A DNA stretch of 64,000 nt from Citrobacter youngae ATCC 29220 (GTDB taxonomy: Bacteria; Pseudomonadota; Gammaproteobacteria; Enterobacterales; Enterobacteriaceae), in NCBI RefSeq assembly GCF_000155975.1, contig NZ_GG730299.1, positions 2,229,813 to 2,293,812 on the forward strand. The letters are read 5' to 3'. A program made the position numbers and the translations under genes. Of this stretch, positions 10,183 through 27,290 are shown piece by piece; within the stretch, counting starts at the first letter, position 1, and the number at the start of each line of letters is the position of its first letter. The notes beneath the pieces are model-generated. The model did no database searches, was not told where the DNA came from, and saw only the letters and a program-made list of their open reading frames with translations.

Positions 10183-11130
10183 TTAGGTGATGCACTCTTT
10201 CTCATGGGCATCGCCCATAACCTGGCATACTTCCTCTGTAGATATTTTTTGCAAGGCCAACTCCCTGAACAGCCCTGGACTGACCCCCGTATGTTTATGG
10301 AAAAAGCGCGTAAAGTAGGCCTCATCATTGAATCCTAAAAAAGCCGCAAGCTGCTTTATCGTCTTAGAGGTGTAAACCAACTCCTGTTGGGCTTCCTGCA
10401 GTACGCGCATATTAATCACGTCCAGGCTGGACATGCCTAATGTTATCCGGCATAAGCGCGACAGATGCCCCGGGGACATGCCCATCTCCTCAGAATAATC
10501 ATTAACGGTCAACCGCTGGCGAAAGCGCTGATCCACCAGCAGGAGGAATTTGTTTATTTGTGAGGCTTTACGCGAGCAGATATCAAATTTCTGCTGTTCT
10601 TCTGTCAGGGTACTGATACGCGTGAGGTGAACCAGAATGGAGATAAAAATCGAAATGCACATTGCCTTATGATTAACCCGCGGTTTCTGCATCTCTTTTT
10701 GTAAAGACTGATAAAAACCCTGAATAATTTTCCCGTCTTCAGGAGAACCATCGAGAGGGATTACGCAGGGTTTATGCATCAGAGTGAGAACGTTGGGCGC
10801 CAATAACCCCATCACCGATTCCATTGGCCCTTGTGAGGCAGTGATCGTCATCCCTTCCGTACCGGGTCGGTAATCAAAACCATGAACGGTCTGCGCAGGT
10901 ACAAGGATGAGACCCGGACCATTTACCTTCATCCGGGTGTAATTCATTAAAACATCGACCTCGCCGCTCTGGATAAAGAGGGTCTGAATTAATGAGTCAT
11001 GAATATGCGGGCTGGCTTTCCAGTTCAGGGGTTTTGAACGCAATGAGATCATTTCTACATTAAAGAAATTTTCCCAGCCCGGTTCCGACTGTTCGCCATA
11101 TAACGCATAAGTAGGAATGGTCGTTGTCAT
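10183..11130 (-). CDS. AraC-family regulator resembling PobR/PobC-type activators
   Basis: 315 residues from the ATG at 11130, giving MTTTIPTYALYGE. The N-terminal half is a cupin-like sensor (HIHDSLIQTLFI... and a later VPAQTVHGF). The C-terminal 100 residues carry the two AraC helix-turn-helix units, ending in the typical GFNDEAYFTRFFHKHTGVSP. The N-terminal pattern (IPxYxLYGE followed by a histidine-containing effector-pocket motif) recalls PobR/PobC regulators of hydroxybenzoate catabolism, though this is from memory. It is the last gene of the minus-strand arm and presumably controls both arms of the cluster, probably sensing an aromatic or cyclic acid. Confidence 0.85.
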   Translation of the reverse strand: MTTTIPTYALYGEQSEPGWENFFNVEMISLRSKPLNWKASPHIHDSLIQTLFIQSGEVDVLMNYTRMKVNGPGLILVPAQTVHGFDYRPGTEGMTITASQGPMESVMGLLAPNVLTLMHKPCVIPLDGSPEDGKIIQGFYQSLQKEMQKPRVNHKAMCISIFISILVHLTRISTLTEEQQKFDICSRKASQINKFLLLVDQRFRQRLTVNDYSEEMGMSPGHLSRLCRITLGMSSLDVINMRVLQEAQQELVYTSKTIKQLAAFLGFNDEAYFTRFFHKHTGVSPGLFRELALQKISTEEVCQVMGDAHEKECIT

Positions 11131-11157
11131 CAATGCTTCCCCACCCAATAAAATGGA

Positions 11158-11188
11158 CCCGCCAGGCGGCAACGGTGCCCCTGGCGGG
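11158..11188 (-). terminator. Hairpin between CoA-transferase and AraC genes
   Basis: A strong stem (CCCGCCAG with CTGGCGGG, plus an inner GGCA/TGCC) lies directly after the CoA-transferase stop. On the minus strand it is followed by TCCATTTTATT, a weak T tract. It may attenuate read-through into the regulator gene. Confidence 0.65.
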
Positions 11189-11194
11189 CTAAGG

Positions 11195-12409
11195 TTATGC
11201 GGGCATAATAACCGCGCCGTCAGCATTCAAACGCTCTATCTCCTCGACAGAATATCCGTATTCCAAAAGAATTTGCTGCGAATCATGCCCTAATCCGCGG
11301 GATGGACGAATTTGTGCAGGCCCCATACTGCCAATGTTCACAGGAGGGGTCACCAGCACACGTCGGTTACCGGTGATATATTCAACATTTCGCAGACAGT
11401 CCGTCGCCCACGCCTGCTCATCGTCAAGGATTTCATCAGGCGTGAAGCCTTTCTCATGAGCAAAGTCGTTCTGTTTTAACATCTGCATCATTTCATCAAG
11501 CGAGCGTTTAGCGACCTGCTCACTGATGATCCTGATAATATCCCGGTTACGTCCATGTAGATTGACATCGGCAATACGACAAAACTCAGGACTGTCGACC
11601 AAATCTTCGCGACCAAGTAGCGTCATGAACTTATTGAAAAAGCGATCGTACTCTGGGATACAAATTACCATCCAGCGACCATCAAGAGTTTTATAGGTAT
11701 TGTTGAACGGGTTCGCGACTTCACAACGGGATTTAGGATAAACGTTGCCATATTGCGCCGATGTGACGGCAATACTCATCATAAACAACGCGGTATGATG
11801 CAGACTCACTGTCACCTTATCCCCTCGTCCGGAGAGCGTACGACCATATAACGCCGCGCAAACTCCCGAAACCAGACACATGGAGGCCTGGAAATCGCCA
11901 AACCCATTCACTGAGTTAATCGGCGTTTCCCCGCGTTCGTTTGTCGACCCCAGGATCCCTCCCCGGCAAACATAGGCCGTCGCATCAAACCCTGCGGTAT
12001 CTTTTTCTGGCCCTTGCTCACCATACCCCAGAATCTGAGCAAAAATTAAACGCGGAAAACGCAGGTGCAATTCTTCCCATGAGAACCCCAGCCGCTCCAG
12101 CGCTTTCGTCCGATAGCTGGTCACTACCACATCAGCGGTGGAAAGAATGCGCCAGGCAATTTCTTTCGCTCGCTCCTGTTTCAAATTCAGACACAGAAAA
12201 CGCTTATTGGCATTGGAAATATCAAATGCCGGATTCTCATCATCTTCATACGGCATATTAAAAACTGACGCCTGCGTGCGGCCAGGATCGCCGATGGGCG
12301 GTTCGATTTTGATCACATCCGCCCCCCAATCACCTAAAATACGCGCTACCGTTGGCGCAGCCAGAAATGATGTCAGATCAACGACCTTAACGCCCTCTAA
12401 TGGTCTCAT
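11195..12409 (-). CDS. Class III (CaiB/BaiF) CoA-transferase, FldA-like
   Basis: 404 residues from the ATG at 12409, chosen over an in-frame TTG at 12424 because GAGGGA lies eight bases upstream of it. Family III CoA-transferases move CoA between carboxylates through an enzyme-aspartyl anhydride; the expected nucleophile is the Asp in GFGDFQAS, about residue 172. Several blocks (NANKRFLCLNLK, YRTKALERLG, FAQILGYGEQGPEKD, LLGREDLV) agree with FldA, cinnamoyl-CoA:phenyllactate CoA-transferase of Clostridium sporogenes, as I remember it, better than with carnitine CaiB. This points to an aryl- or cyclo-acyl substrate. Stop and start sites place it between an MFS gene and the AraC gene. Confidence 0.87.
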   Translation of the reverse strand: MRPLEGVKVVDLTSFLAAPTVARILGDWGADVIKIEPPIGDPGRTQASVFNMPYEDDENPAFDISNANKRFLCLNLKQERAKEIAWRILSTADVVVTSYRTKALERLGFSWEELHLRFPRLIFAQILGYGEQGPEKDTAGFDATAYVCRGGILGSTNERGETPINSVNGFGDFQASMCLVSGVCAALYGRTLSGRGDKVTVSLHHTALFMMSIAVTSAQYGNVYPKSRCEVANPFNNTYKTLDGRWMVICIPEYDRFFNKFMTLLGREDLVDSPEFCRIADVNLHGRNRDIIRIISEQVAKRSLDEMMQMLKQNDFAHEKGFTPDEILDDEQAWATDCLRNVEYITGNRRVLVTPPVNIGSMGPAQIRPSRGLGHDSQQILLEYGYSVEEIERLNADGAVIMPA

Positions 12410-12439
12410 GTCATATTCCCTCAAAAATGAGTAGCCTGT

Positions 12440-13753
12440 TTAACCGGCAAATCCTTTACGGCCACCGGCGCTGACGCGTGCTGATTTTTTTTCTATTGGC
12501 CGAATGCGCGCAATTAGCATAAAGAATGCTCCGACAATCGCCACGCCTGCGCCCAGATACAGTGCGTACTCGTACTGACCACCGGAGACATCAATCACCC
12601 AGCCAGCGAGTACAGGCGAGAGAATACCCGCCAACGTCCCGAACACCCCGTTCAGCCCGACCAACATGCCGGTGTCTTTTTGCGAGAAAATAATAGGAAT
12701 TGAAAAGTGTGCAGCCATCGTGAAGCACAGGAAGAAGTTCGACGCAGAGATAAGCGTGGCGGCACTCCACAAGCTGTTTGCCTGAGTGCCGAGGATCAAA
12801 AATACCCCAGCTAATAATAACCCCAGTACCGGAGAAATCTTACGTCCGACGTTTTGTCCAAATCGACGACATGCGGCATCAGTAACTACGCCCCCCAGCG
12901 GATAGGCAAAGATTGCCACCAGATACGGCAGCATAGAAAAAATCGCGCTTTGTTTGAGATCGATTCCACGCCCCATAGCAAAGTAGGTTGGCAGCCAGGT
13001 CATGAAGAGAAAAAAGAGGTAATTGGTACAAAAGTAACATAAGGCGCATGCCCAGACTGAAGGGGTCGCCAGAATATCACCTTTACTTAGCGGCTCATTC
13101 TGTGTAGCCGGAGAGATTTCGGTAGAGACTTGCCCAGCCAGAATATAGTCTCGTTCACCCTGGGTGATAAATTTATCCTGTTGCGGACGGTTGCTGCCGA
13201 GCTTCCACCACAGCAGACACCACAGTACGCCGGGTACCGATACAACGTAAAACACGGCCTGCCAGTCCCAGCGTTGGACTATCCATGCGGCCAGAACCAT
13301 GGCAACGGCAATACCGGTTGGGCAACCTATCTGCAATAATCCTGTCGCCATTCCGGCTTCATGCTTAGGTACCCATTTTGCCGCCAGTGAAAAGTTAGCC
13401 GGCACGAGCAACCCCTGACCAATCCCGACCAGAATACGCAGTAACATCATGATGCCCAGCGTTGATCCTAACGGCGTCAGAAATGTGAAAACTGCCCACC
13501 ATAATGTTCCGGTCACTAAAACGACCCCGCCGCCAAACCTGTCCGCCAGTAAACCCGCGGGTAACATTGTGACGGCATAGCCAATGAAAAACGCAGTGGA
13601 TACCCAGCCAAACTGCATAGCGCTCCAGCCATATTCCTGCATTAATGCAGGCCCACACATAGACATCCCACTTCGCGCCACAAACATGACGAAATAATCA
13701 ATAATGAGCAGGACAATAATGCCCCAGCGTCTGTTCCCTGGTGATGTACTCAT
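12440..13753 (-). CDS. MFS transporter, anion:cation symporter (ACS) type
   Basis: 437 residues with about 12 hydrophobic segments. The opening NRRWGIIVLLIIDYF and the loop PAGLLADRFGGG match the ACS family of MFS carriers, which move organic anions such as sugar acids and phthalate with H+ or Na+. It lies 30 bases upstream of the CoA-transferase gene on the same strand. Because the opposite arm encodes a second MFS carrier of another family, one may import the substrate and the other export the product. The substrate is unknown. Confidence 0.85.
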   Translation of the reverse strand: MSTSPGNRRWGIIVLLIIDYFVMFVARSGMSMCGPALMQEYGWSAMQFGWVSTAFFIGYAVTMLPAGLLADRFGGGVVLVTGTLWWAVFTFLTPLGSTLGIMMLLRILVGIGQGLLVPANFSLAAKWVPKHEAGMATGLLQIGCPTGIAVAMVLAAWIVQRWDWQAVFYVVSVPGVLWCLLWWKLGSNRPQQDKFITQGERDYILAGQVSTEISPATQNEPLSKGDILATPSVWACALCYFCTNYLFFLFMTWLPTYFAMGRGIDLKQSAIFSMLPYLVAIFAYPLGGVVTDAACRRFGQNVGRKISPVLGLLLAGVFLILGTQANSLWSAATLISASNFFLCFTMAAHFSIPIIFSQKDTGMLVGLNGVFGTLAGILSPVLAGWVIDVSGGQYEYALYLGAGVAIVGAFFMLIARIRPIEKKSARVSAGGRKGFAG

Positions 13754-13766
13754 AGGTCACTCTCGC

Positions 13767-13816
13767 AAAAAAGCAAAAATGGCCGTAGCCACAGGATAAA
13801 CAGCGACGTACGGCCA
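13767..13816 (-). terminator. Terminator-like hairpin between dehydrogenase and MFS genes
   Basis: On the minus strand a TGGCCGTA/TACGGCCA stem with a 21-base loop is followed by TTTTTGCTTTTTT. It would stop or reduce transcription from the acyl-CoA dehydrogenase gene into the MFS, CoA-transferase and AraC genes. Confidence 0.6.
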
Positions 13817-13821
13817 AAACT

Positions 13822-13853
13822 GAGGTTAGTGTCCCGTAAAAACGGCTAACCTC
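13822..13853 (-). repeat. Second hairpin downstream of the acyl-CoA dehydrogenase gene
   Basis: GAGGTTAG pairs with CTAACCTC, with an inner CCGT/ACGG stem and an AAAA loop. It immediately precedes the terminator-like hairpin at 13767-13816; the two together suggest differential expression or mRNA 3'-end protection. Confidence 0.55.
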
Positions 13854-13877
13854 TGACACGGTGCAAACGCTCCCGGA

Positions 13878-15044
13878 CTAGCGAATCTCACCACCTGCGG
13901 CGATCAATGGGCGTGCGATAGTCAGTCGCTGCACGGTACGTGGGCCTTCCTCAAACCACAGGGCGCGAGCATCGCGGTACATTCTTTCTACCGGCCCATA
14001 CGGGTTATCTTCGAAATAGCCAATACCGCCAAAGATTTCGAGGCAGCTATCCGATACCGTACGCACGGTATCAATGCCGTGCAGTTTGCACATGGCTGAA
14101 ACCATCTCAATATCTTCGCCACGGTCGAATTTTTGCGCACAGTCGCGCAGCATGACGCGCAGCGCATGTACCTGAGTGCCCATATCCGCCAGCGTTTGTT
14201 GAATCGCCTGGCGAGAAGCGAGGGCCTTACCGAAAGTCACACGATCTTTTGCTCTGGCAATCGCCAGTTCCAGGAAGCGCTGTGACATACCAAGACAGGT
14301 TACGGCAATCATGGCGCGTGAATGCGCCAGCGCATTCATGAAAATATCCAGGCCATCGCCCTCTTTCCCCATAATGTTATGAGCAGGGACTTCGCAGTTT
14401 TCAAAACGCAGATAAGCATGACCCGCGCCACGGCACCCCATCATATGCGGCATAGGATCAATGTAATAACCGGGAGTATTCGTTTCGATAAAGAATGCTG
14501 TTAAACCACCTTTTTTACGCTTATTCTCATCCGTAACCGCAATAACATAGCTCCCATCGGATATATCCGTATGGGATATCAGCGTTTTAGTTCCATTAAG
14601 AATATATTTATCCCCTTTTTTAACCGCGGTAGTACGAATATCAGCACCCGAACCACAATCCGCCTCAGTTAATGCAAAGTTAATATAAGCGTCTTTATTT
14701 GCCAGCAGCGGTAGCCATTTAGCGCGCAAATCTTCTGCACCATGATCGTACATGATTCGCCAGTTCAATCCGTTGGCGTGGTGCAGGTTCATACGCATCC
14801 CACCGGGCCCACGGCAAAACTCTTCCATCACCGAAAAGAACTGTTCACAGTTGAGTCCCATACCGCCAAATTCTTCAGGCATCGCCAGACGAAACAGATC
14901 GTTTTTACGGCAAACATCGTAATAAGAGTCAGGAAAGACATTCGTCCGCTCAACTTCCAGTTGAATTTCTTCCAGCTCAGTTTCGGTAACCTTTCTGACT
15001 TTTTTCTTCAATGCTTCCAGTTGCTGTTGAGATAAAATGGACAT
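13878..15044 (-). CDS. Acyl-CoA dehydrogenase with canonical catalytic Glu
   Basis: 388 residues from the ATG at 15044. It has the FAD-binding acyl-CoA dehydrogenase fold: FALTEADCGSGAD (about 123-135) is the first signature and the C-terminal WFEEGPRTVQRL aligns with the family's YEGTxxIQR. The alignment puts the catalytic base at Glu366. At the alternative isovaleryl-CoA-dehydrogenase site it has Ser242. It is expected to oxidise an acyl-CoA to the 2,3-enoyl-CoA, or run in reverse, with ETF as electron partner. It is transcribed away from the ETF operon and is followed by two hairpins. It is only distantly related to the second dehydrogenase at 15438. Confidence 0.87.
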   Translation of the reverse strand: MSILSQQQLEALKKKVRKVTETELEEIQLEVERTNVFPDSYYDVCRKNDLFRLAMPEEFGGMGLNCEQFFSVMEEFCRGPGGMRMNLHHANGLNWRIMYDHGAEDLRAKWLPLLANKDAYINFALTEADCGSGADIRTTAVKKGDKYILNGTKTLISHTDISDGSYVIAVTDENKRKKGGLTAFFIETNTPGYYIDPMPHMMGCRGAGHAYLRFENCEVPAHNIMGKEGDGLDIFMNALAHSRAMIAVTCLGMSQRFLELAIARAKDRVTFGKALASRQAIQQTLADMGTQVHALRVMLRDCAQKFDRGEDIEMVSAMCKLHGIDTVRTVSDSCLEIFGGIGYFEDNPYGPVERMYRDARALWFEEGPRTVQRLTIARPLIAAGGEIR

Positions 15045-15437
15045 ATACCAACCCCACTCCACGTTGAATACTCAGGTAAGAATGCAGGTCATAAGAATAT
15101 GAATATATAAAAGATAAGATATTCTAACCAACCTGTTTCCATGAATTAACACGATGGATTATAGAAATAAAATTCGTCCCCCTGACATTGACAGATTTAA
15201 CCAAAAACAGGACAAATCGAACATCACCAACACCCAGCGCTTATTTCTGAACCCGCATCACAAAAGCATGCTAAATGCTCGTTTTGTCCAGGACGTTGTT
15301 AAATATGTCTATGCATCATTAATGCCCACTGAATTTATGCTCGTCATACCAATTATTCTGCAAGTCGGCGTCCAGGCACGATCAGAATATAAAGAAATGA
15401 ACATCGTCCGAAACATCAATTCTTATCAGGAGACATC
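15045..15437. promoter_or_regulatory. Divergent control region of the acyl-CoA cluster
   Basis: This 393-bp AT-rich gap separates the two dehydrogenase genes and must hold both promoters. Inverted arms GGACAAA (15210-15216) and TTTGTCC (15283-15289) and two direct copies of GTCCAGG (15286-15292 and 15370-15376, 84 bp or about eight helical turns apart) are candidate binding sites for the AraC-type regulator. The plus-strand gene has a CAGGAGAC ribosome binding site just before its ATG. The assignment of sites is inference. Confidence 0.5.
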
Positions 15438-16583
15438 ATGGACTTTAGCCTGACCGAAGAGCAGGAGCTGCTTTTAGCCAGTATCCGCGAACTGATAACA
15501 CGAGATTTTCCCGAAGAATATTTCAAGACCTGTGATGAAAATGGTGCCTTCCCCAGCAAGTTCTTTCAGGCATTGGCCGAAAGCGGCGTGGGGCTGTTAG
15601 GCATTCCAGAAGAACTCGGCGGCATCCCCGCCGATATGATGACGCAAGTGCTGGTTCTGGAGGAAATCGCGCGCATGGGGGCTCCCGCCTACATTATGAC
15701 GGAAGGCCAATGCATCCATAATATGCAACGCTTTGGCAATGCCGAACAGTTGGCGAAAACGGCTGAAGTCGGGCTGACCGGAATCCCAGCCTATTCACTT
15801 GCCTTCACCGAGCCGCAGGCGGGATCGGATAATAACCGCGTCGCCACAACCTATACCCGAAAAAATGGCAAAGTTTATCTGAACGGGCAAAAAACGTTCA
15901 TCACGGGCGCCAAAGACTACCCATACATGCTGGTGCTGGCACGCAATCCCGAACCGGAAGATCCCAAGCGTTGCTTCACCCTGTGGTGGGTGGATCCAAA
16001 CATGCCGGGCGTTAAGCGCAATAGCCTGCACAAAATCGGCTGGCACATGGTCAGCAACTGCGAGGTTTTTCTCGATAACGTTGAACTGGAAGAAAGCGCG
16101 ATGGTGGGCCGCGAAGGTTACGGCTTCATTCACATGATGGAAAACTTCGATATTGAACGTATCGTCATCGCCGCACACTCGCTGGGCGTGGCGGAATGCG
16201 CCTTTGAAGATGCCGCCCGCTATGCCAATCAACGTATTCAGTTCGATAAAAATATCGGCCAGTTCCAGATGATTCAGCTCAAGCTGACCCAAATGGCGAT
16301 AAAGATCCAAAACATGAAAAACATGGTCTATCGCACGGCATGGGAATGTGACAACGATTTACCCATGCGCCTGTCCGCGCCGATGTGCAAATTGTATTGC
16401 GCACAATCAGCATGTGAAGTCATTGACGATGCGATGCAGATTTTAGGTGGCCTTGGTTACACCAATGACAGCCGGGTATCCCGCTTCTGGCGAGATACCC
16501 GCGTTAACCGCATCGGCGGCGGCACCGACGAGATTATGGTGTATATCTCAGCCCGCCAGATCCTGAAACAGTATGAAAAATAA
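15438..16583 (+). CDS. Acyl-CoA dehydrogenase/enoyl-CoA reductase, YdiO/CaiA-like
   Basis: 381 residues. The opening MDFSLTEEQELLLASIREL and the C-terminal RIGGGTDEIM closely match E. coli YdiO and, more loosely, the crotonobetainyl-CoA reductase CaiA. The first signature LAFTEPQAGSDNN is present. At the canonical base position (YEGT) it has Gly361; the likely base is Glu240 in FDIER, equivalent to Glu254 of human isovaleryl-CoA dehydrogenase. It leads an operon with ETF and FixC/FixX-like genes, the arrangement used for ETF-linked respiratory reduction or oxidation of acyl-CoA. The substrate is not known. Confidence 0.9.
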   Translation: MDFSLTEEQELLLASIRELITRDFPEEYFKTCDENGAFPSKFFQALAESGVGLLGIPEELGGIPADMMTQVLVLEEIARMGAPAYIMTEGQCIHNMQRFGNAEQLAKTAEVGLTGIPAYSLAFTEPQAGSDNNRVATTYTRKNGKVYLNGQKTFITGAKDYPYMLVLARNPEPEDPKRCFTLWWVDPNMPGVKRNSLHKIGWHMVSNCEVFLDNVELEESAMVGREGYGFIHMMENFDIERIVIAAHSLGVAECAFEDAARYANQRIQFDKNIGQFQMIQLKLTQMAIKIQNMKNMVYRTAWECDNDLPMRLSAPMCKLYCAQSACEVIDDAMQILGGLGYTNDSRVSRFWRDTRVNRIGGGTDEIMVYISARQILKQYEK

Positions 16584-16594
16584 TAGGATACGTC

Positions 16595-17359
16595 ATGAAA
16601 TTACTTGCCTGTTATAAATTGGTCGCGGAAGAGCAAGACATCACTATCACCGCTGACAGAACGCTGGATACAACACGTGCTGGAGAAAAAATCAGCCCAT
16701 TCGACCTTAATGCCATTGAAGAGGCCGTCCTGCTGGCCGGTGAAAACGATGAAGTCATGGCCCTGTGCGTTGGCGGTCAGGCGCTGGATAACGCCAAACT
16801 GCGTAAAGATTTGCTCTCCCGAGGTCCTCATGGACTCTACCTGGTGCGCGACGAGCGATTGTCGGTTGCGCTTGCGCACGAAACGTCCAGGGTGATTGCC
16901 GCAGCGGCGAAGAAAATCGGTTTTGATCTGCTGCTGTGTGGCGAAGGCTCTGGCGATCTCTATGCACAGCAAACCGGGCTGCGTGTTGGGGAAATGCTTC
17001 ATCTGCCCACCGTCAACGCCGTCAGCCACATTGAAATCCATGACGGCTACGTTACGGTCGAACGCACGCTGGAAAATGAAATAGAGATTATTGATGTGCC
17101 GCTTCCTGCCGTATTGTGCGTCACCTCAGATATTAATGAACCGCGTATTCCTTCCATGAAAGCAATTCTCGGCGCAGGGAAAAAGCCCGTTACCCAATGG
17201 ACAGCCGATGACATCGGCTGGTCGCCGGTCGCTCCCGATACCGAAATGGTCAATATTTATGCTCCGCAGCAGACAGAACGTAAACACATCATCATTGAAG
17301 GCGACGGCGCAGAAGATATCGCTCGCCTGGCAGAGCATCTCAGTAAAGTGCTGAACTGA
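16595..17359 (+). CDS. Electron transfer flavoprotein beta subunit, YdiQ/FixA-like
   Basis: 254 residues. The N-terminal KLLACYKLV, the LLSRGPHGLYLV block and the C-terminal RIPSMKAILGAGKKPV agree with YdiQ/FixA-type ETF beta chains. With the alpha subunit it forms the ETF heterodimer (FAD, probably plus AMP) that shuttles electrons between the acyl-CoA dehydrogenases and the FixC/FixX-like quinone oxidoreductase. It begins 11 bases after the dehydrogenase gene. Confidence 0.9.
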   Translation: MKLLACYKLVAEEQDITITADRTLDTTRAGEKISPFDLNAIEEAVLLAGENDEVMALCVGGQALDNAKLRKDLLSRGPHGLYLVRDERLSVALAHETSRVIAAAAKKIGFDLLLCGEGSGDLYAQQTGLRVGEMLHLPTVNAVSHIEIHDGYVTVERTLENEIEIIDVPLPAVLCVTSDINEPRIPSMKAILGAGKKPVTQWTADDIGWSPVAPDTEMVNIYAPQQTERKHIIIEGDGAEDIARLAEHLSKVLN

Positions 17360-17379
17360 ATACAACGGAGAAGCTGGGA

Positions 17380-18336
17380 ATGAGCAAAATCAATCAGGTA
17401 TGGGTAGTGAGCGACAGCGCCGACCGTTACGCGGATCTTCTTGCAGGAGCAAAGCAGTTCGGTGAACACGTGAGTGCGGTCATCTGGGATGAAAGCGAGG
17501 CTTTGCAGGTACAACATGCCGACGCGGTGTACGTTCTAAGCGGAAAGTCAGAACAGCAGCGGTTAGAAAACTATGCGGAAACCCTTGTTGCCCTGATACA
17601 AAATACCGAAAAAGGCGCCAGCGCGCTCAGGACGGGAACATTAATCCTGCTGGCGGCGACCCGACGTGGAAAAAGCCTGGCGGCCAGGCTTAGCGTCCTG
17701 CTGCAATCAGCGCTGATTAATGATGCCACCAGCCTGGCGCTGGAGAATGACGAACTGTACGCCGAACATCGAATGTATGGCGGTCTGGCGTTTGGTCGGG
17801 AAAAAATTAACACACCTACGGCTATCGTGACCGTTTCGAGTGGCGTATTCGAGCCGCTGGAAGAAAATGCGCCGCATCAGCGTGCTCCCATCCCCGTCAG
17901 TTATGTCCCACCGCAACATGCGCTTTTATGCAAAGCGCGCCGGGCAAAATCGGTCAGCAGCATCGATCTCAGTAAAGCCCGTCGTGTTGTCGGAATTGGG
18001 CGTGGCTTAGCGGCCAAAGACGATCTGCATATGATCTGGGAATTAGCCGCTGCGCTGAATGCGGAAGTCGGCTGCTCCCGCCCCATTGCTGAAGGGGAGC
18101 ACTGGATGGATCGTGAACGTTACATTGGCGTTTCTGGCGTACTGCTTAAAACCGATGTGTATCTGGCGCTGGGCATCTCAGGGCAGATACAGCATATGGT
18201 CGGCGGTAATGGCGCCAAAACCATTGTCGCCATTAATAAAGATAAGAATGCGCCAATCTTTCAGTACGCCGACTACGGGCTGGTAGGCGATATATATAAA
18301 GTCGTCCCGGCATTAACTGAACTGCTGCAGCGCTAA
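17380..18336 (+). CDS. Electron transfer flavoprotein alpha subunit, YdiR/FixB-like
   Basis: 318 residues. The C-terminal FAD domain is clear, with YLALGISGQIQHMVG followed by AINKDKNAPIFQYADYG, the ETF-alpha signature. A GGAGAAGC ribosome binding site precedes the ATG. It pairs with the beta subunit 20 bases upstream. An inverted repeat follows before the FixC-like gene. Confidence 0.9.
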   Translation: MSKINQVWVVSDSADRYADLLAGAKQFGEHVSAVIWDESEALQVQHADAVYVLSGKSEQQRLENYAETLVALIQNTEKGASALRTGTLILLAATRRGKSLAARLSVLLQSALINDATSLALENDELYAEHRMYGGLAFGREKINTPTAIVTVSSGVFEPLEENAPHQRAPIPVSYVPPQHALLCKARRAKSVSSIDLSKARRVVGIGRGLAAKDDLHMIWELAAALNAEVGCSRPIAEGEHWMDRERYIGVSGVLLKTDVYLALGISGQIQHMVGGNGAKTIVAINKDKNAPIFQYADYGLVGDIYKVVPALTELLQR

Positions 18337-18344
18337 CATTTAAC

Positions 18345-18365
18345 GCCGCCATCCCGAATGGCGGC
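18345..18365 (+). repeat. Intercistronic hairpin between etfA- and fixC-like genes
   Basis: Perfect 8-bp stem GCCGCCAT/ATGGCGGC with a 5-base loop. No T run follows, so mRNA stability or processing is more likely than termination. Confidence 0.5.
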
Positions 18366-18381
18366 AACAGGAGCAAAAGCG

Positions 18382-19674
18382 ATGTCGGACGAAAAATTTG
18401 ACGCCATTATTGTCGGCGCAGGCATCTCTGGCTGCATCGCCGCTTATGTAATGGCAAAAGCAGGGCTGGATGTACTGGTCATTGAGCGTGGTGATACTGC
18501 GGGCAGTAAAAATATGACCGGAGGACGACTCTACACCCACAGCCTGGAAGAAATTATGCCGGGTTTTACCCATATAGCCCCCGTTGAAAGAAAAGTGGTC
18601 AGGGAGCGAATTTCCTTTCTTACAGCAGAAAGCGCTGTCACGCTGGACTATCTCGCAAGCACGCCTCAACAGGCCCCGATTGCAGAATCATGGACGGTGC
18701 TTCGCCACACATTTGACAGCTGGCTCATGGCGCAAGCAGAAGCCGTTGGCGCTCAGTTCATCACCGGCGTCAGAGTCGATTCACTGATCCGTCAGAATGG
18801 GCGAGTGACGGGAGTTCAGGCCGGAGACGACACGCTGGAGGCAAATGTGGTTCTCCTCGCCGACGGTGTAAATTCTCTGCTGGGCCGCGCTATCGGTATG
18901 GTGCCAGAATCATCGCCGCACCATTATGCCGTGGGCGTGAAGGAGGTCATTTCGCTGCCATCCGCACAAATTCAGGAGCGCTTCGGGCTAACGGGGAACG
19001 AAGGCGCCGCCTGGCTGTTTGCCGGTTCGCCGTCAGACGGATTAATGGGCGGCGGTTTCTTGTATACCAATCGCGATACGCTTTCGCTGGGTCTGGTATG
19101 CGGCCTCGACGGTATCGAGCATGCCCGCAAAACCGTGCCGCAAATGCTGGAAGACTTTAAACAGCATCCTGCTATCCGTCCGCTAATCGAAGGCGGTACG
19201 CTACAGGAATATTCCGCGCATCTGGTACCGGAAGGCGGGATAGATATGGTTCCAACGCTAGTCGAGAACGGGGTGATGATTGTCGGCGATGCGGCCGGAA
19301 TGTGTCTGAATTTAGGCTATACCGTGCGGGGCATGGATCTTGCCATCACGGCAGCCAATGTGGCGGCGCAAACGGTCATTACTGCGAAAAACGCCAATGA
19401 TTTCAGTAAGGAAAAACTCCAAGATTATCCCAATGCACTGGAGAAAAGCGCGGTGTTACGCGATATGCGCCACTACCGCCGCCTCCCCGCAATGATGGAG
19501 AACCCGCGAATTTTTCAACAATACCCACAAATGGCAACCGACCTCATGGCGTCTCTGTTTACCGTCAACGGCAAGGCCCCTGCTTCGCTGTGCTCGACAG
19601 TACTGGCGCACGGCAAAAAAATCGGATTAATCAATCTATTAAAAGACGGCATTAAAGGAGTTCGCGCATTATGA
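18382..19674 (+). CDS. FAD-dependent ETF:quinone oxidoreductase, FixC/YdiS-like
   Basis: 430 residues from the ATG at 18382, chosen because ACAGGAG lies just upstream. The dinucleotide fold is at the N-terminus (DAIIVGAGISGCIAA), followed by ERGDTAGSKNMTGGRLY as in FixC. A second FAD block, GVMIVGDAAGMCLNLGYT, is near residue 300. FixC-type proteins pass electrons between ETF and the membrane quinone pool with the FixX ferredoxin. The stop overlaps the FixX-like start (ATGA). Confidence 0.9.
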   Translation: MSDEKFDAIIVGAGISGCIAAYVMAKAGLDVLVIERGDTAGSKNMTGGRLYTHSLEEIMPGFTHIAPVERKVVRERISFLTAESAVTLDYLASTPQQAPIAESWTVLRHTFDSWLMAQAEAVGAQFITGVRVDSLIRQNGRVTGVQAGDDTLEANVVLLADGVNSLLGRAIGMVPESSPHHYAVGVKEVISLPSAQIQERFGLTGNEGAAWLFAGSPSDGLMGGGFLYTNRDTLSLGLVCGLDGIEHARKTVPQMLEDFKQHPAIRPLIEGGTLQEYSAHLVPEGGIDMVPTLVENGVMIVGDAAGMCLNLGYTVRGMDLAITAANVAAQTVITAKNANDFSKEKLQDYPNALEKSAVLRDMRHYRRLPAMMENPRIFQQYPQMATDLMASLFTVNGKAPASLCSTVLAHGKKIGLINLLKDGIKGVRAL

Positions 19675-19955
19675 ATACCGTGAACGTCGATGTGAAATTG
19701 GGTACGAATAAATTCAGGGTCGATGAAAGCCATCCCCATATTATCCTGGTGGAAAACCCCGATCGAGAGCAGTTTCGTAAACTGATCCTCGCTTGCCCCG
19801 CTGGATTATACCGACAGGATGACGCTGGCAATATTCACTTTGATTATGCTGGCTGTCTCGAATGCGGCACATGCCGGGTGCTGTGTTCACACACCATTCT
19901 TCAAAAATGGGAATATCCGCAAGGAACGTTTGGCGTTGAATTTCGCTTCGGCTAA
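19671..19955 (+). CDS. Ferredoxin-like FixX/YdiT protein
   Basis: 94 residues. It shows the 4Fe-4S arrangement GCLECGTCRVLC together with an upstream ACPAGLY cysteine, as in FixX and the ferredoxin domain of eukaryotic ETF:ubiquinone oxidoreductase. Translation is coupled to the FixC-like gene by a four-base overlap. Its C-terminal KWEYPQGTFGVEFRFG is the usual family ending. Confidence 0.92.
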   Translation: MNTVNVDVKLGTNKFRVDESHPHIILVENPDREQFRKLILACPAGLYRQDDAGNIHFDYAGCLECGTCRVLCSHTILQKWEYPQGTFGVEFRFG

Positions 19956-20023
19956 CCCCCTGCATAACAGCATATATCGCCGTATCAGAAGATACCTCGT
20001 GTTCGCGGTTCAGGGAGAAGACC

Positions 20024-21346
20024 ATGTCGGTACAGAATCAAATTGATATCAGTACGATTTTAGACAAACACCCAATCAGCAAACGGCAATGGTTTATTGT
20101 CTTTCTCGGTTTTTTTGTTCTGGGTATTGATGGTTTCGATGTCACGGCAATTGGCTACATTGCTCCGGCATTAATAGATCACTGGCAACTATCCAAACAA
20201 GATCTGGGCCCGGTCATGATGAGTGGATTATTGGGGCTGGCGGCAGGCTCTTTAATCTCTGGCCCGTTAGCTGACCGCTATGGACGCAAAAAATTAATTA
20301 TTGGTTCAGTTGTCTTTTTTGGTCTCAGCAGCCTGCTTTCTGCCGGGGCCTGGAATTTATCCAGCCTGACTTTTTTTCGTTTTATTACCGGACTCGGGTT
20401 AGGCGCAGCGATGCCCAACATCACGACGCTGGTTGCAGAGTACGCCCCCCACCGTTACCGATCTCGCCTGTCAACGGTGATCCATTGTGGTTTTAATTCT
20501 GGCGCTGCGCTGGGAGGCATACTTAGTCAACAGTTGCTCGGGGAGTTTGGCTGGCGCGCCGTGCTTGTCGCAGGCGGCATTTTGCCATTATTGCTGGCAC
20601 TGGTTTTACTGCGTTGTTTACCTGAATCGATGCCGTATCTGGTACAGCACGCCGGTAACGATGCGCGCCTGGTTCGCCTGCTGAATCTGTTTATTCCCGG
20701 AATCGCAGACAAGGATACGCGTTTTTACACCACCGAACCGCAAAAAGCCCGCGCCAGCACGGCAAAATCACTGCTGCATCCCCCCTACACGCTGGGAACG
20801 GTGGCGCTGTGGTTAACGCTTTTTGTCGGACTCTTTAGCGTTTACCTTTTATCCAGCTGGTTACCCCTGATGATAAAAGATGCCGGACTTACGCTCTCTC
20901 AGGCCGTCATTATGGGGTCTGTCTTTCAGATAGGCGGCATGATGGGCAATTTTTGCATTGGTATTGAAATGGATCGTTGGGGCAAACACCAGGCCCTTAT
21001 TCTGACGCTGTCAGGCAGCATATGTGGCGCATTAATTCTGGGGCTGTGCACCCCTTCGCTTTTCCTGCTCTATGCCCTGATTCTTATTCTTGGCTTCACA
21101 CTCAACGGGATCAACCCCGGATGCTACGCACTGGCCGCGCACTTTTACCCGACCTCAATACGGGCAACCGGCGTTGGCTGGGCAACGGGCATTGGTCGGC
21201 TGGGCGCCATTACCAGCGCAGGCGTGGGTTCGCTCATGCTCGCGGCGGGCTGGACATTCAGCGACGTCTTTCTGTTTTTGCCTCTGCCGCTACTGGCTGG
21301 CGCACTGGCGATGTATTGCAAAAAAAGAACTCCGTCTGAGACATAA
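20024..21346 (+). CDS. MFS transporter, aromatic acid:H+ symporter (AAHS) type
   Basis: 440 residues, about 12 hydrophobic segments. Diagnostic AAHS features are the DGFD motif in the first segment (GIDGFDVTAIGYIAP) and the loop 2-3 signature GPLADRYGRKK. AAHS carriers take up benzoate, hydroxybenzoate, phenylpropionate-type and related acids with protons. A GGGAGAAG ribosome binding site precedes the ATG. Position within the ETF operon makes it the likely importer of the pathway acid, which supports an aromatic or cyclic substrate. Confidence 0.88.
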   Translation: MSVQNQIDISTILDKHPISKRQWFIVFLGFFVLGIDGFDVTAIGYIAPALIDHWQLSKQDLGPVMMSGLLGLAAGSLISGPLADRYGRKKLIIGSVVFFGLSSLLSAGAWNLSSLTFFRFITGLGLGAAMPNITTLVAEYAPHRYRSRLSTVIHCGFNSGAALGGILSQQLLGEFGWRAVLVAGGILPLLLALVLLRCLPESMPYLVQHAGNDARLVRLLNLFIPGIADKDTRFYTTEPQKARASTAKSLLHPPYTLGTVALWLTLFVGLFSVYLLSSWLPLMIKDAGLTLSQAVIMGSVFQIGGMMGNFCIGIEMDRWGKHQALILTLSGSICGALILGLCTPSLFLLYALILILGFTLNGINPGCYALAAHFYPTSIRATGVGWATGIGRLGAITSAGVGSLMLAAGWTFSDVFLFLPLPLLAGALAMYCKKRTPSET

Positions 21347-21349
21347 CCA

Positions 21350-23011
21350 ATGACAACGAACCTAAAAATCAATGCCGAGCATAAAGCGCAATACCGGCAA
21401 CAGGGCCACTGGGGAGATGCGACATTAGCCGATTACTGGTACCTGTCGGCCAAAGCGTATGCGGATAAAGTGGCGGTCACCGATAATCGGGGGGACAACT
21501 ACACCTATAAAGCACTGGATATTGCCGCAGGACGGCTGGCATCCTGGCTCATCGACGCCGGTATCCGCCCGGGCGATCGCGTGGCGCTCCAGCTGCCCGG
21601 CTGGTGTGAATTCACGATAATTTATCTGGCCTGCCTGAAAAGCGGGGCCGCGATCGTCCCGCTCCTGCCTGCTTTCAGGGAATGTGAACTGACCTGGATA
21701 CTCAATAAATGCCGGGCCCGGATACTGTTTACACCAACGAGCTTTAAAAACGGCAACCCGGCAGAGATGATCGCCGCACTCCGTTCCGATCTGCCCTGGC
21801 TCGAGCAGGTGGTGGCGGTTGATAAGCTGGCGCCTGCGCGCACAGGACCCGTTCTAAGCCAGATCCTCAATGATTCTCCGCCAATAGCGCATCACGTCCT
21901 AACGCATAGCGACGATCTGGCGGCAGTTCTTTTCACTTCCGGTACGGAAGGTCATCCCAAAGGCGTGATGCTAACGCACAATACCATCATCGCCAGTGAA
22001 CGAACCTTCTGCGCGGCGCTCAATATAAACTGGACGGATTCGATTCTCATGCCAGCTCCGCTAGCCCATGCAACAGGGTTTCTGCATGGCGTGACCGCCC
22101 CTTTTTTAACGGGCGCCAGCAGCGTGTTGATGGACATATTTTCTCCGCAAGAGTGCCTGGCATTACTGGCGCAGGAACGCTGCACCTGCATCATGGGGGC
22201 AACCCCGTTCGTGTGCGATCTGCTGTATGCTTCCAAAGCACAGCGCAGCAGTCTGTCTTCTCTTCGCTTCTTTCTGTGCGGGGGAACCACAATCCCAGGA
22301 AAACTTCTGCAGGAATGTCACCAGGCAGGGATTCAACTCCTTGGCGTATACGGAAGTACAGAAAGTGCTCCCCATGCGATAGTGCGTCCGCATGAATCTC
22401 TGGCTCATCAAATGAATACGGATGGCAGAGCCGCCGCGGGCGTTGAAGTCAGAGTGGTCGACAGGAAGAAGATGACACTGGCGGCAAATAATGAGGGCGA
22501 AGAAGCCTCGCGCGGCCCCAATGTTTTTGTCGGCTATCTTGATGAACCAGAATTGACCGACCAGGTACTTGACGACGACGGATGGTATTACAGCGGCGAC
22601 TATTGCCGGATGGATAAAGACGGCTATATCAAAATTACTGGCCGAAAAAAGGACGTTATCGTCCGTGGCGGTGAAAACATCAGTAGTCGCGAAATAGAAG
22701 ATATTCTGCTGCTTCATCCGGATATCCACGATGCCGGTGTGGTGGCCATGCCGGATAAACGCCTGGGTGAACGTTCGTGCGCTTATGTCGTGCTTAATCA
22801 CCCACAAAAAACGCTTCAGTTGGCGGATATCATCGCGTTTTTCGCCCAAAGGCGTATCGCAAAATATAAATACCCGGAATATCTGGTCGTTATAGATAAA
22901 TTACCGCGTACGGCCTCAGGCAAGATTCAAAAATACATTCTCCGGCAGGATATTCTCCAGCGTCTGGCGTCCCTCTCGCAAGAAACGGCTGACCTGACAA
23001 CCTCGGCGTAA
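21350..23011 (+). CDS. Acyl-CoA ligase (AMP-forming), FadK/YdiD-like
   Basis: 553 residues. ANL-superfamily motifs are complete: FTSGTEGHPKGVMLTH (about 199-214), VYGSTESAPHA, YYSGDYCRMDKDGYIKITGRKKD and the C-terminal PRTASGKIQK with the adenylation lysine. The N-terminal QYRQQGHWGDATLADYW closely resembles E. coli FadK (YdiD), a short-chain acyl-CoA synthetase. It would prime the acid with CoA, after which the class III CoA-transferase could recycle CoA from product to substrate. It starts four bases after the MFS stop. Confidence 0.9.
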   Translation: MTTNLKINAEHKAQYRQQGHWGDATLADYWYLSAKAYADKVAVTDNRGDNYTYKALDIAAGRLASWLIDAGIRPGDRVALQLPGWCEFTIIYLACLKSGAAIVPLLPAFRECELTWILNKCRARILFTPTSFKNGNPAEMIAALRSDLPWLEQVVAVDKLAPARTGPVLSQILNDSPPIAHHVLTHSDDLAAVLFTSGTEGHPKGVMLTHNTIIASERTFCAALNINWTDSILMPAPLAHATGFLHGVTAPFLTGASSVLMDIFSPQECLALLAQERCTCIMGATPFVCDLLYASKAQRSSLSSLRFFLCGGTTIPGKLLQECHQAGIQLLGVYGSTESAPHAIVRPHESLAHQMNTDGRAAAGVEVRVVDRKKMTLAANNEGEEASRGPNVFVGYLDEPELTDQVLDDDGWYYSGDYCRMDKDGYIKITGRKKDVIVRGGENISSREIEDILLLHPDIHDAGVVAMPDKRLGERSCAYVVLNHPQKTLQLADIIAFFAQRRIAKYKYPEYLVVIDKLPRTASGKIQKYILRQDILQRLASLSQETADLTTSA

Positions 23012-23024
23012 GAAGGATCGCGTT

Positions 23025-23585
23025 ATGTCTCTAAGTCACACTGTTCCCGAACATTCTCACAACGTACGCAGGGTATCAAACCGGATTAAAAACAGTACCA
23101 AACCCACTTTTATCCACCCTAACCCAAGCTTCTACCGTTGTCCTCAGTGCGGGGAGTTCCTTGTCACTATGGCTAAACGTGACGCAACATCCCCGATAGC
23201 CTGCTGTGGAAAAACACTCGTCGCGCTACGGGTCAATGATGCCACCGCTACCGATGCGCTCGCCCAACAGCACCAACCGCTGATGACCATTTCCGGAGGA
23301 TTTGAATCAAATACGCTTTCCGTAACGGTAGGTAATCCGGCGCATCCAATGACGGTAGATCACTATCTGGAGTGGATCTTTATTTACACCTTTCAGGGGG
23401 GGCAATTTAAGTATCTGCCGCCAGGCGCACCGCCGGAAGCCACTTTTGCACTCGCGGACAACGATGCTTATGTTTATTGCGATCGCCCAATCTGCAAAGG
23501 AAAACTGTGTAAATTCAACTGCAAACGAGGGTTTTCAGCCTATACCTGGTGCAATCAGCATGGGTTGTGGCGGTACACATTTTGA
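23025..23585 (+). CDS. Desulfoferrodoxin/superoxide-reductase-like iron protein
   Basis: 186 residues behind an AAGAAGGA ribosome binding site, 13 bases after the ligase gene. Residues 36-68 look like a desulforedoxin domain with Cys39, Cys42, Cys60 and Cys61. Residues 80-186 match the superoxide reductase domain: candidate iron ligands are His83, His107 (HPM), His113 (HYLEW), Cys176 and His179 (WCNQHGLW). The usual Glu-Lys pair before the first histidine is Gln-Gln here. A 35-residue N-terminal extension and an inserted Cys152/157/162/166 cluster are unusual. It could be a superoxide reductase or an electron carrier for the cluster; the role is unproven. Confidence 0.8.
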   Translation: MSLSHTVPEHSHNVRRVSNRIKNSTKPTFIHPNPSFYRCPQCGEFLVTMAKRDATSPIACCGKTLVALRVNDATATDALAQQHQPLMTISGGFESNTLSVTVGNPAHPMTVDHYLEWIFIYTFQGGQFKYLPPGAPPEATFALADNDAYVYCDRPICKGKLCKFNCKRGFSAYTWCNQHGLWRYTF

Positions 23586-26341: not shown

Positions 26342-27088
26342 ATGTTTAAACGTACATTACTCTTGGCCTTGTTACCCGCTATCGCGCATGCTGAAGAACT
26401 CCCCGCTCCCGTTAAAGCGATTGAGAAACAGGGCATTACTATTCTGAAACCTTTCGATGCCCCTGGCGGAATGAAAGGTTATCTGGGTAAATACCAGGAT
26501 ATGGGCGTCACTATCTACGTCACGCCCGACGGCAAACATGCCATTTCCGGCTACATGTACAATGAGAAAGGTGAAAACCTTAGTAATGCGCTGATAGAAA
26601 AAGAGATCTATGCGCCCGCCGGGCGTGAAATGTGGCAACGAATGGAAAAAGCGACCTGGATTCTGGATGGGAAAAAAGAGGCGCCGGTCATCGTTTATGT
26701 GTTTGCCGATCCCTTCTGTCCGTACTGCAAACAGTTCTGGCAACAGGCGCGTCCCTGGGTTGAATCGGGTAAAGTTCAGCTACGGACACTGCTGGTTGGC
26801 GTGATTAAACCGGAAAGTCCGGCCACTGCCGCAGCAATCCTGGCGACAAAAGATCCGGCCAAAACCTGGCATGACTACGAGGCATCCGGCGGGAAAATGA
26901 AGCTGGAAATCCCGGCAACGCCTTCGGCAGAACAGATGAAGGTGCTGAATATCAATCAAAAGTTGATGGATGATTTGGGGGCCAACGTTACTCCAGCTAT
27001 CTATTACATGAGCAAAGACAATACCCTGCAACAGGAGGTGGGTATGCCGGATAAAGAAAAAATGGAAATTATAATGGGAAATAAATAG
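26342..27088 (+). CDS. dsbG: Periplasmic thiol:disulfide isomerase/reductase DsbG
   Basis: 248 residues, identical in length to E. coli DsbG. A signal peptide occupies about residues 1-17 (ending AIAHA). The N-terminal dimerisation domain is followed by a thioredoxin fold with the CPYC active site in [12 protein letters not shown]. DsbG protects single cysteines of periplasmic proteins from sulfenylation and acts as a chaperone; DsbD keeps it reduced. TAAGGA precedes the ATG. It is divergent from ahpC across a 375-bp region with two OxyR sites. Confidence 0.96.
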
Positions 27089-27098
27089 CGTCAATATT

Positions 27099-27145
27099 AT
27101 GAGTGATTGTTATCGTTCTCATTTCAATCACTCATCCATTATTTT
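27099..27145 (+). terminator. Probable dsbG terminator
   Basis: 11-bp perfect stem ATGAGTGATTG/CAATCACTCAT with a 15-base loop, followed by CCATTATTTTT. It starts 11 bases after the dsbG stop. Confidence 0.75.
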
Positions 27146-27290
27146 TCTCGTCAACATAATACCGGCTGTGTTATTTTAGTTTAAGTTAATCGTCCCTTAA
27201 GCATGAAAGCTATACAGATAGCGAATAAAAATTCGTTAAATTATTCTCAAATGTAATACATCGAAGAAAATTCACAACTGGAATAGACAT

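Follow-up and report, generated by a model that had tools for sequence, protein, structure and literature searches.

What does a compact set of acyl-CoA redox genes do in an enteric genome that already carries other systems of this type? The question is raised by a 13.4-kb interval (10183-23585) lying between uspG and ahpF in a 64,000-nucleotide stretch of Citrobacter youngae ATCC 29220 DNA, hereafter the window. The interval encodes an acyl-CoA ligase, a class III CoA-transferase, two acyl-CoA dehydrogenases (ACDs), an electron-transfer flavoprotein (ETF), a FixC/FixX-like pair, two carriers of the major facilitator superfamily (MFS), an AraC-family regulator and a desulfoferrodoxin-like protein that we label SORv; the ACD encoded at 13878..15044 is called acd1. 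Somewhat short of an even chance, our tentative answer is a CoA-loop electron-transfer module, probably reductive, whose substrate is a cyclic or aryl acid taken up from outside and whose redox partner is SORv. The module itself is of a known type; the novelty lies in SORv and its link with acd1.

Gene content of the inserted cluster

All the reading frames are open at the coordinates given below and form two divergent runs, separated by 393 bases between acd1 and the ydiO-like gene. The minus-strand run comprises acd1, an MFS carrier, the CoA-transferase and the AraC regulator, and the plus-strand run the YdiO-like ACD, ETF beta, ETF alpha, the FixC-like and FixX-like proteins, the second MFS carrier, the ligase and the 186-residue SORv. 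In E. coli K-12, uspG and ahpF are adjacent and convergent, with no gene between them, and megablast found at least 80% coverage of the interval in none of 5,426 E. coli genomes, so that the interval is an insertion relative to E. coli. The best 20 of 3,405 E. coli matches all correspond to ydiO, at about 73% DNA identity. For the adjoining ahpF-ahpC DNA, the best E. coli matches have 86% identity. The GC content of the interval (0.47-0.57) resembles that of the surrounding DNA.

A sequence-only reading of the window had already proposed an inserted acyl-CoA redox cluster at this place. Reading frames, family profiles and the comparison with E. coli confirm the insertion and the families it named; the last reading frame, which it had left unnamed, turned out to be of the desulfoferrodoxin type with an additional motif of four cysteines (Cys4). 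Its view that carbon-chain cleavage is not encoded also holds, none of the 12 profiled genes of the interval being a hydratase, a hydroxyacyl-CoA dehydrogenase or a thiolase. A ligase, a transferase, an ACD and ETF, with hydratase and thiolase both missing, make up the CoA-loop pattern, in which an acid is activated, undergoes a two-electron change and is released. As gene content, the proposed redox module between an acyl-CoA and its enoyl-CoA, with its CoA-transferase loop and ETF-FixCX, is thus borne out.

A core shared by Enterobacterales and Bacillota

Much the same set recurs in other genera and is therefore more than a chance assembly. Scanning genome contigs with the transferase gave 20 loci, several of them near-identical. 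The enteric ones belong to Phytobacter (two), an E. albertii contig, Brenneria, Edaphovirga and Budvicia, and the others to a Peptococcaceae metagenome-assembled genome (MAG) and to Lacrimispora, Hungatella, Ventrimonas, Lachnospiraceae and Paenibacillaceae records. Further copies are a diverged second one in Budvicia (L045), a clostridial one (L112) and one on plasmid pSPTER of Sporomusa termitida. The core common to Enterobacterales and Bacillota consists of acd1, the CoA-transferase, the ligase and SORv, the Bacillota copies having an unrelated second ACD instead of YdiO. SORv lies in the cluster at 17 of the 20 loci (at four via separately read ligase-side DNA, the contigs being paired by equal length), the sequence examined at L015, L027 and L033 ending before its position; it is also present in L045, L112 and Sporomusa. 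FixC/FixX-like genes accompany the cluster of the window, that of the Peptococcaceae MAG and, E. albertii apart, those of the other enterics; Lachnospiraceae-type copies show no FixCX in the DNA examined, and most of them show ETF.

The cluster is rare in the samples drawn. Of 246 genomes sampled from the family, 9 have a transferase match at E<=1e-60, and 5 of these 9, counting the genome of the window, are cluster-type at 78% identity or more; among 341 Clostridia the transferase matched at E<=1e-50 in 15, 2 of them cluster-type. Horizontal spread of an acyl-CoA redox module forms part of our best explanation of the locus. The flank of a Phytobacter copy, which adjoins a gene of the uracil-DNA-glycosylase superfamily (L014:12316-13005), differs from that of the window, so that insertion sites probably differ. 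SORv matches occur in 8 of 72,556 plasmid records, those examined being from Sporomusa, Ilyobacter and E. eligens; the Sporomusa protein, the one plasmid protein read, has the new Cys4. A phage origin was rejected, as none of the 24 pattern matches obtained on scanning viral contigs with the SORv alignment was confirmed as a relative.

Several copies have peculiarities of their own. Budvicia (G180) holds two copies in one genome (L044 and L045), the second with a LysR regulator in place of AraC. The Sporomusa copy (L165:235-17764) is extended by genes for an SDR, a Tdh/IolM-type (MDR) dehydrogenase, a second CoA-transferase and a VdcC-like UbiD decarboxylase. The E. albertii NBRC 107761 copy (L016) is decaying, with fixX shortened to residues 46-94 and in-frame stops in ydiO and mfs1.

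SORv, a desulfoferrodoxin-like protein with a second Cys4 motif

SORv (23025..23585, plus strand; PF01880 E 7e-12) starts 13 bases after the ligase stop. It carries an N-terminal Cys4 (C39, C42, C60, C61) and all five superoxide-reductase (SOR) ligands (H83, H107, H113, C176, H179). An insertion within the SOR domain adds another Cys4 (C152, C157, C162, C166) directly before the CNxHG ligand motif. The protein therefore has the nine residues expected of the Dx-SOR class I (Dx Cys4 and SOR His4Cys ligands), with a TIGR00320 score of 58.7 bits, under the cut-off of 146.9, and departs from that class, which has no extra metal-ligand motif in the SOR domain.

We compared 17 SORv, near-copies omitted, with 41 ordinary desulfoferrodoxins, the best matches in loci from the genome searches. 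The new Cys4 is present in all 17 SORv and in none of the 41, the N-terminal Cys4 in 16 and 37 respectively, and the SOR ligands in only 8 of the SORv as against 41/41. The copies compared that retain all five ligands are 7 from enterics and the one from Peptococcaceae. In a quick tree with several long branches, from which columns filled in less than 30% of rows had been removed, the SORv rows make up one side of a branch (SH-aLRT 99). From this conservation we infer that the working centre common to all SORv is the new Cys4 and that the SOR site can be dispensed with; an iron-sulfur cluster in the new motif is our guess, made from the arrangement of its cysteines. An added iron-sulfur domain characterizes the SOR of class IV, methanoferrodoxin (PMC3116461). 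SORv resembles class I desulfoferrodoxin and class IV, the latter known to us by description, in its Dx Cys4, SOR ligands and added metal-site motif; it differs from both in that the added Cys4 lies inside the SOR domain and that 9 of 17 SORv are without SOR ligands.

AlphaFold2 gave a SORv model of middling quality (mean pLDDT 69.6, pTM 0.65; block means 58-61 over residues 141-170), on which no argument here relies. When solved structures were searched by profile, no more than three superoxide-reductase sequences aligned over model positions 150-168, at E 0.011-0.027. Among 345 genomes of the window's order, the full-profile match is found in the window genome alone, three others being ordinary matches. 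A search of 392 genomes from the order to which a Lacrimispora genome belongs gave desulfoferrodoxin-type matches in 170; within the matches listed, the centre genome alone spans the new region intact, and G549 reaches position 168 and has internal stops.

Could SORv be no part of the pathway, but only an accessory antioxidant that clears superoxide made by flavoproteins when oxygen enters? Flavin enzymes do make superoxide, the SOR ligands are kept in the eight copies just named, and two of the genomes searched that have the diverged SORv form (G250 and G252) show no PF01880 match and thus no recognisable other SOR, which all agrees with such a role. It accords poorly with the nine SORv that have lost the SOR ligands while keeping the new Cys4, and with the three Lacrimispora genomes searched, each of which has two ordinary SOR-domain genes elsewhere. 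We consider this explanation rather unlikely.

A bolder view is that SORv founds a new class of SOR-derived proteins. The Cys4, probably binding iron-sulfur, would be the working centre, and SORv would act as one-electron partner of acd1 in a new cyclic-acyl-CoA reaction, a ring reduction or a radical-type elimination, within a pathway of Enterobacterales and Bacillota. We hold it to be doubtful.

A distant SORv (L160:9123-9653, genome G1381) has the new Cys4 and is without the N-terminal one. It sits between xsc (772 bits, over the cut-off) and a gene of the amino-acid-permease type, with an aminotransferase nearby. A link to sulfite or taurine was not adopted, this being a single case in a genome without acd1.

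acd1, an isolated subfamily of acyl-CoA dehydrogenases

No other protein of the set is as well conserved as acd1 (13878..15044, minus strand; Pfam ACD domains) when the enteric copies, other than the second of Budvicia, and the Peptococcaceae MAG are compared: its identity is 96-97% to Phytobacter and 82-83% to the MAG. A 40-row ACD tree sets it apart as an isolated subfamily (support 100/100, branch 1.46), which groups with no enzyme of known function in the sequence sets compared. Among 291 Clostridia, 46 have an acd1 match at E<=1e-55; in the matches listed, two cluster copies are 54-59% identical to acd1 and all others at most 37%.

The subfamily is marked by the motif W[FL]EEG[PAT]xTV, at whose W[FL]EEG all 28 other sequences checked have EGT. 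Once four long fusion-type sequences had been removed from the alignment, 34 residues proved common to all 14 acd1 while occurring in no more than 5% of the 52 other ACDs, which represent part of the ACD families. They include R84, M201, E336 and E365, the last adjoining the base E366, and acd1 retains a glutamate at the usual base position. R84 may match the substrate-carboxylate arginine of glutaryl-CoA dehydrogenase. As read from the alignment, these residues are marks of a subfamily and not proof of a new chemistry. AcrC-type (acryloyl-CoA reductase) and AliB-type enzymes were compared via NCBIfam models only, and acd1 falls within neither: for AcrC (NF042972, its best NCBIfam model, cut-off 640) it reaches 254.5 bits and the YdiO-like ACD 233.3, and for the AliB type acd1 reaches 193.1 with NF043006 (cut-off 650) and 154.7 with TIGR03207 (cut-off 575.35).

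A third system beside ydi and cai

Besides caiA and caiB, the source genome holds a ydi locus that is complete and syntenic (ydiK-M-N-B-aroD-F-O-P-Q-R-S-T-fadK-ppsA), which makes the cluster a third, paralogous system. For the cluster's YdiO, ETF, FixCX and ligase, identity to the ydi proteins of the same genome is 61-76%. The ACD tree places the YdiO of the window, grouped with those of five other cluster copies, as sister to the YdiO of E. coli and of the source genome (95/93), with CaiA next; most of the plus-strand run is thus a ydi paralogue. Of the two ACDs, that of 15438..16583 (plus strand) alone is a YdiO, both by its position in the tree and by its score (NF008997, 688.1 bits, cut-off 537). 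It is followed on the same strand by a YdiQ-like ETF beta (16595..17359; NF008998, 385.5 bits, cut-off 338) and a YdiR-like ETF alpha (17380..18336; NF008884, 489.3 bits, under the cut-off of 528). Next come a FixC/YdiS-like FAD oxidoreductase (18358..19674; NF007450, 758.8 bits, cut-off 466, the profile matching from residue 9) and a FixX/YdiT-like ferredoxin (19671..19955; NF011993, 144.9 bits, under the cut-off of 166). The ligase (21350..23011, plus strand) is of the FadK type (NF004758, 887.7 bits, cut-off 736), and its second-best family is cyclohexanecarboxylate-CoA ligase (TIGR03208, 428.9 bits, cut-off 792.3).

By sequence, acd1, the transferase, both carriers and SORv are not ydi paralogues. 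The E. coli ydi operon (ydiF-ydiO-ydiP-ydiQRST-fadK) has the order ACD, ETF, FixCX-like pair and ligase in common with the cluster, but differs by its own CoA-transferase YdiF, annotated as acetate-CoA transferase, by the lack of acd1 and SORv, by another AraC protein (the cluster regulator is 16% identical to the YdiP of its own genome) and by ydiB-aroD alongside. The sequence-only reading would have counted a grouping of these enzymes with those of short fatty acids against its aryl or cyclic substrate; such grouping is found in part, for the YdiO-like ACD, sister of YdiO, and for the ligase, which exceeds the cut-off of the medium-chain fatty-acid enzyme FadK, and not for acd1.

The cai-fix system of E. 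coli, which serves carnitine/crotonobetaine reduction, follows a like logic of CoA-transferase, ligase, ACD and ETF-FixCX. It differs in that CaiB is far from the cluster transferase in the tree and that CaiD and CaiT are without counterpart among the 12 cluster genes. The transferase scores 111.7 bits with the CaiB model (cut-off 413), and acd1 and the YdiO-like ACD score 143.4 and 448.9 bits for CaiA (cut-off 540). A carnitine-type function was rejected on these scores, the tree distance and the separate caiA and caiB of the genome.

The transferase, the carriers and the regulator

The class III CoA-transferase (11195..12409, minus strand; PF02515 E 4e-81) had been described as FldA-like, and this is supported: it has the catalytic Asp and its nearest relatives in the tree are transferases of Fld-type, that is 2-hydroxyacyl-CoA-dehydratase, clusters, a likeness that refers to these cluster transferases rather than to authentic FldA and that long outgroup branches oblige us to treat with care. 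In the 37-row tree, with Asp in the catalytic column of every row, the cluster transferases form two groups, one of enterics and Peptococcaceae (9 rows, 96/94), the other Lachnospiraceae-type (7 rows, 99/99), and both fall with the Fld-type rows in a 33-row group (96/95), far from E. coli CaiB, YfdE and Frc. Inside that larger group the tree does not join the two into a single clade, and the program gave a warning about long branches.

The Fld-type aryl- or 2-hydroxyacyl-CoA dehydratase clusters, whose transferases are the nearest outside relatives (37-44%), have ACD and ETF in most regions examined. They differ by their activator ATPase and HGD-D dehydratase subunits; the window interval holds neither of these, nor FldI/FldB/FldC neighbours. 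From 18 non-cluster-type transferase matches, 10 further Clostridia regions were read, their genes being called by BLAST to Pfam-checked genes of L046; in 9 of them activator-like and/or dehydratase-subunit-like genes lie within the same 13-18 kb, L115 being the one without. L046 is itself an Enterobacteriaceae locus in which a class III CoA-transferase about 40% identical to that of the window stands beside a ligase, and its BadF-type activator and two HGD-D subunits, identified by Pfam, make it a Fld-type cluster in an enteric. Transferases of about 40% beside a ligase occur in the Enterobacteriaceae genomes G022 and G200 (L046, L047), G143, G167 and G114, L046 alone having been profiled with Pfam.

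One MFS carrier (12440..13753, minus strand) is of the D-galactonate or anion-cation symporter type (TIGR00893, 212.6 bits, cut-off 395), the other (20024..21346, plus strand) of the AAHS/PcaK type (PcaK 389.7 bits, cut-off 770; TIGR00895 375.9 bits, cut-off 418.55). The AraC-family regulator (10183..11226, minus strand) is HpaA-like over residues 70-322 (TIGR02297, 137.7 bits, cut-off 274.65); its first ATG, at 11226, overlaps the transferase, and by inspection a later one near 11130 is likelier. For the AAHS carrier and PobR-like regulator of the sequence-only reading, the profiles thus support an AAHS-type carrier and an HpaA-like AraC regulator, both scoring under the curated cut-offs.

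Proposed function and its alternatives

From the genes observed, their order, homology and co-occurrence, the residues kept and the paired elements described below, we infer an activity, a direction, a substrate and, for SORv, a role and a metal content, which would fit together as follows. One MFS carrier would import a carboxylic acid from outside, probably a cyclic one of plant origin (a cyclohexene carboxylate or an aryl-acrylate), to which the FadK-type ligase would attach the first CoA. The Fld-type transferase would then hand CoA from spent product to new substrate, ATP being spent only at the start of the loop. The YdiO-like ACD, ETF and FixCX-like pair would move two electrons between the acyl-/enoyl-CoA couple and the redox pool, more likely for reduction, as an electron sink. 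acd1, the constant and remodelled ACD, could perform the substrate-specific step with SORv as its iron-protein partner and electron carrier, and the second MFS carrier may export the product.

Fermenters of the Lachnospiraceae kind usually run ETF-linked ACDs as reductases, and the reductive direction is favoured because the Lachnospiraceae-type copies have no FixCX in the DNA examined and most have ETF. Five weak hints favour a cyclic substrate: the second-best family of the ligase, the AAHS/PcaK-type carrier, the HpaA-like regulator, ydiB-aroD beside the genome's own ydi, and the SDR, Tdh/IolM-type and VdcC-like UbiD genes of Sporomusa. In a shikimate-producing E. coli under carbon limitation, ydiB, aroD and ydiN are reported to go up together (PMC4585142).

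Some observations weigh against this proposal. A FadK-type ligase and a YdiO-type ACD fit short or medium-chain fatty acids too, and E. coli ydiO and ydiQRST have been assigned to anaerobic beta-oxidation (PMC10318755). FixCX would equally serve oxidation, with electrons passing to quinone. The GntP-type permease of the Lacrimispora copy does not point to aryl acids, no ETF was found in the 21 kb examined of L028, and the E. albertii copy gave no match for fixC or the ligase. Finally, acd1 is absent from genome G1381 (best ACD 36%), so that SORv, there beside xsc, is not strictly tied to ACD chemistry.

An oxidative version had been put forward as the alternative in the sequence-only reading: both ACDs would desaturate a cyclohexane-type carboxyl-CoA stepwise toward an aromatic acid, electrons leaving via ETF and FixCX to quinone. 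The FixC/FixX-like genes of the window, Peptococcaceae and most enteric copies would suit it, as would the UbiD/VdcC-type hydroxyaryl-acid decarboxylase of Sporomusa, a gene seen in that one locus only. The second NCBIfam match of acd1 is cyclohexane-1-carbonyl-CoA dehydrogenase, but its 193.1 bits are far under the cut-off of 650, and the Lachnospiraceae-type copies, which show no FixCX in the DNA examined, thus miss an obvious acceptor for an oxidation. We give this version little weight, as with the antioxidant role of SORv.

The cluster could also be a second fatty-acid system, a duplicate of ydi with broad substrate use that reduces or oxidises short or medium-chain acyl-CoA. YdiO, ETF, FixCX and the ligase are indeed ydi paralogues, the last over the FadK cut-off, but the Fld-type transferase, acd1, SORv, the AAHS-type carrier and the HpaA-like regulator have no ydi counterpart beyond distant family kinship. 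A plain ydi duplicate was moreover rejected as a full account because the core of acd1, transferase, ligase and SORv recurs across phyla in Bacillota, where an unrelated second ACD replaces YdiO; we judge this explanation unlikely. Least probable is a lyase role for acd1, redox-neutral and on an ACD fold as in the trimethylamine-lyase BbuA, with SORv in place of the bbu ferredoxin: the bbu cluster, with its ACD-like lyase, two class III CoA-transferases and ferredoxin, and the 34 residues peculiar to acd1 speak for such a role, but the six genes listed for bbu in PMC8364193 include no ETF or ligase, BbuABC is active there without ferredoxin, and acd1 retains the usual base glutamate.

The CoA-loop module that we prefer has a close parallel. 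Caffeate respiration combines a transferase loop, a ligase, an ACD and ETF. We know of no SORv counterpart in it. The CarC structure 6fah from its carABCDE genes in Acetobacterium woodii is a clear ACD relative, at rank 13 for acd1 and rank 5 for the YdiO-like ACD among the 60 matches listed. Titles and abstract openings of the literature, with most subscription journals outside the search, gave no recognised mention of the cluster or of a desulfoferrodoxin with the new Cys4. If our proposal is true, a protein of oxygen defence would have been turned into part of an anaerobic acyl-CoA pathway, and the cluster would offer a small group of genes with which a so far unassigned electron-sink or aromatisation step of enterics and clostridia could be tested. 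As E. coli ydi is a paralogue, and ydiO is described as having limited functional information (PMC6412132), the substrate of the cluster could also help to explain ydi.

Paired elements between the divergent runs

The 393-base region separating acd1 and the ydiO-like gene contains two inverted 37-base elements resembling operators, A on the acd1 side (15188..15224, plus strand) and B on the ydiO side (15275..15311, minus strand), which agree at 27 specified positions, the pattern being drawn from this pair. An inverted pair scoring 19-25 of 27 is found in all six other AraC-bearing loci (L014-L019), whose intergenic regions are longer (493-663 bases) and whose kinship with the window makes the enteric copies less than fully independent tests. 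The best pattern score was 17 in 200 shuffles of the region, likewise 17 elsewhere in the window, and 15 of 27 in Budvicia copy 2, which has LysR and no AraC. A search for inverted pairs free of the pattern gave 27/37 for the window, against 19-21 in 6 shuffles, and 25 for L014; in L016 the best inverted match (22) is a different pair. By their arrangement, the elements fit binding of the AraC regulator at both divergent promoters. Candidate FNR and CRP boxes were set aside, as their best matches in the region are no better than in shuffles.

Downstream of the cluster, about 1 kb past ahpC, the GC content drops to 0.39 at window positions 27000-27999, in surroundings of about 0.5.

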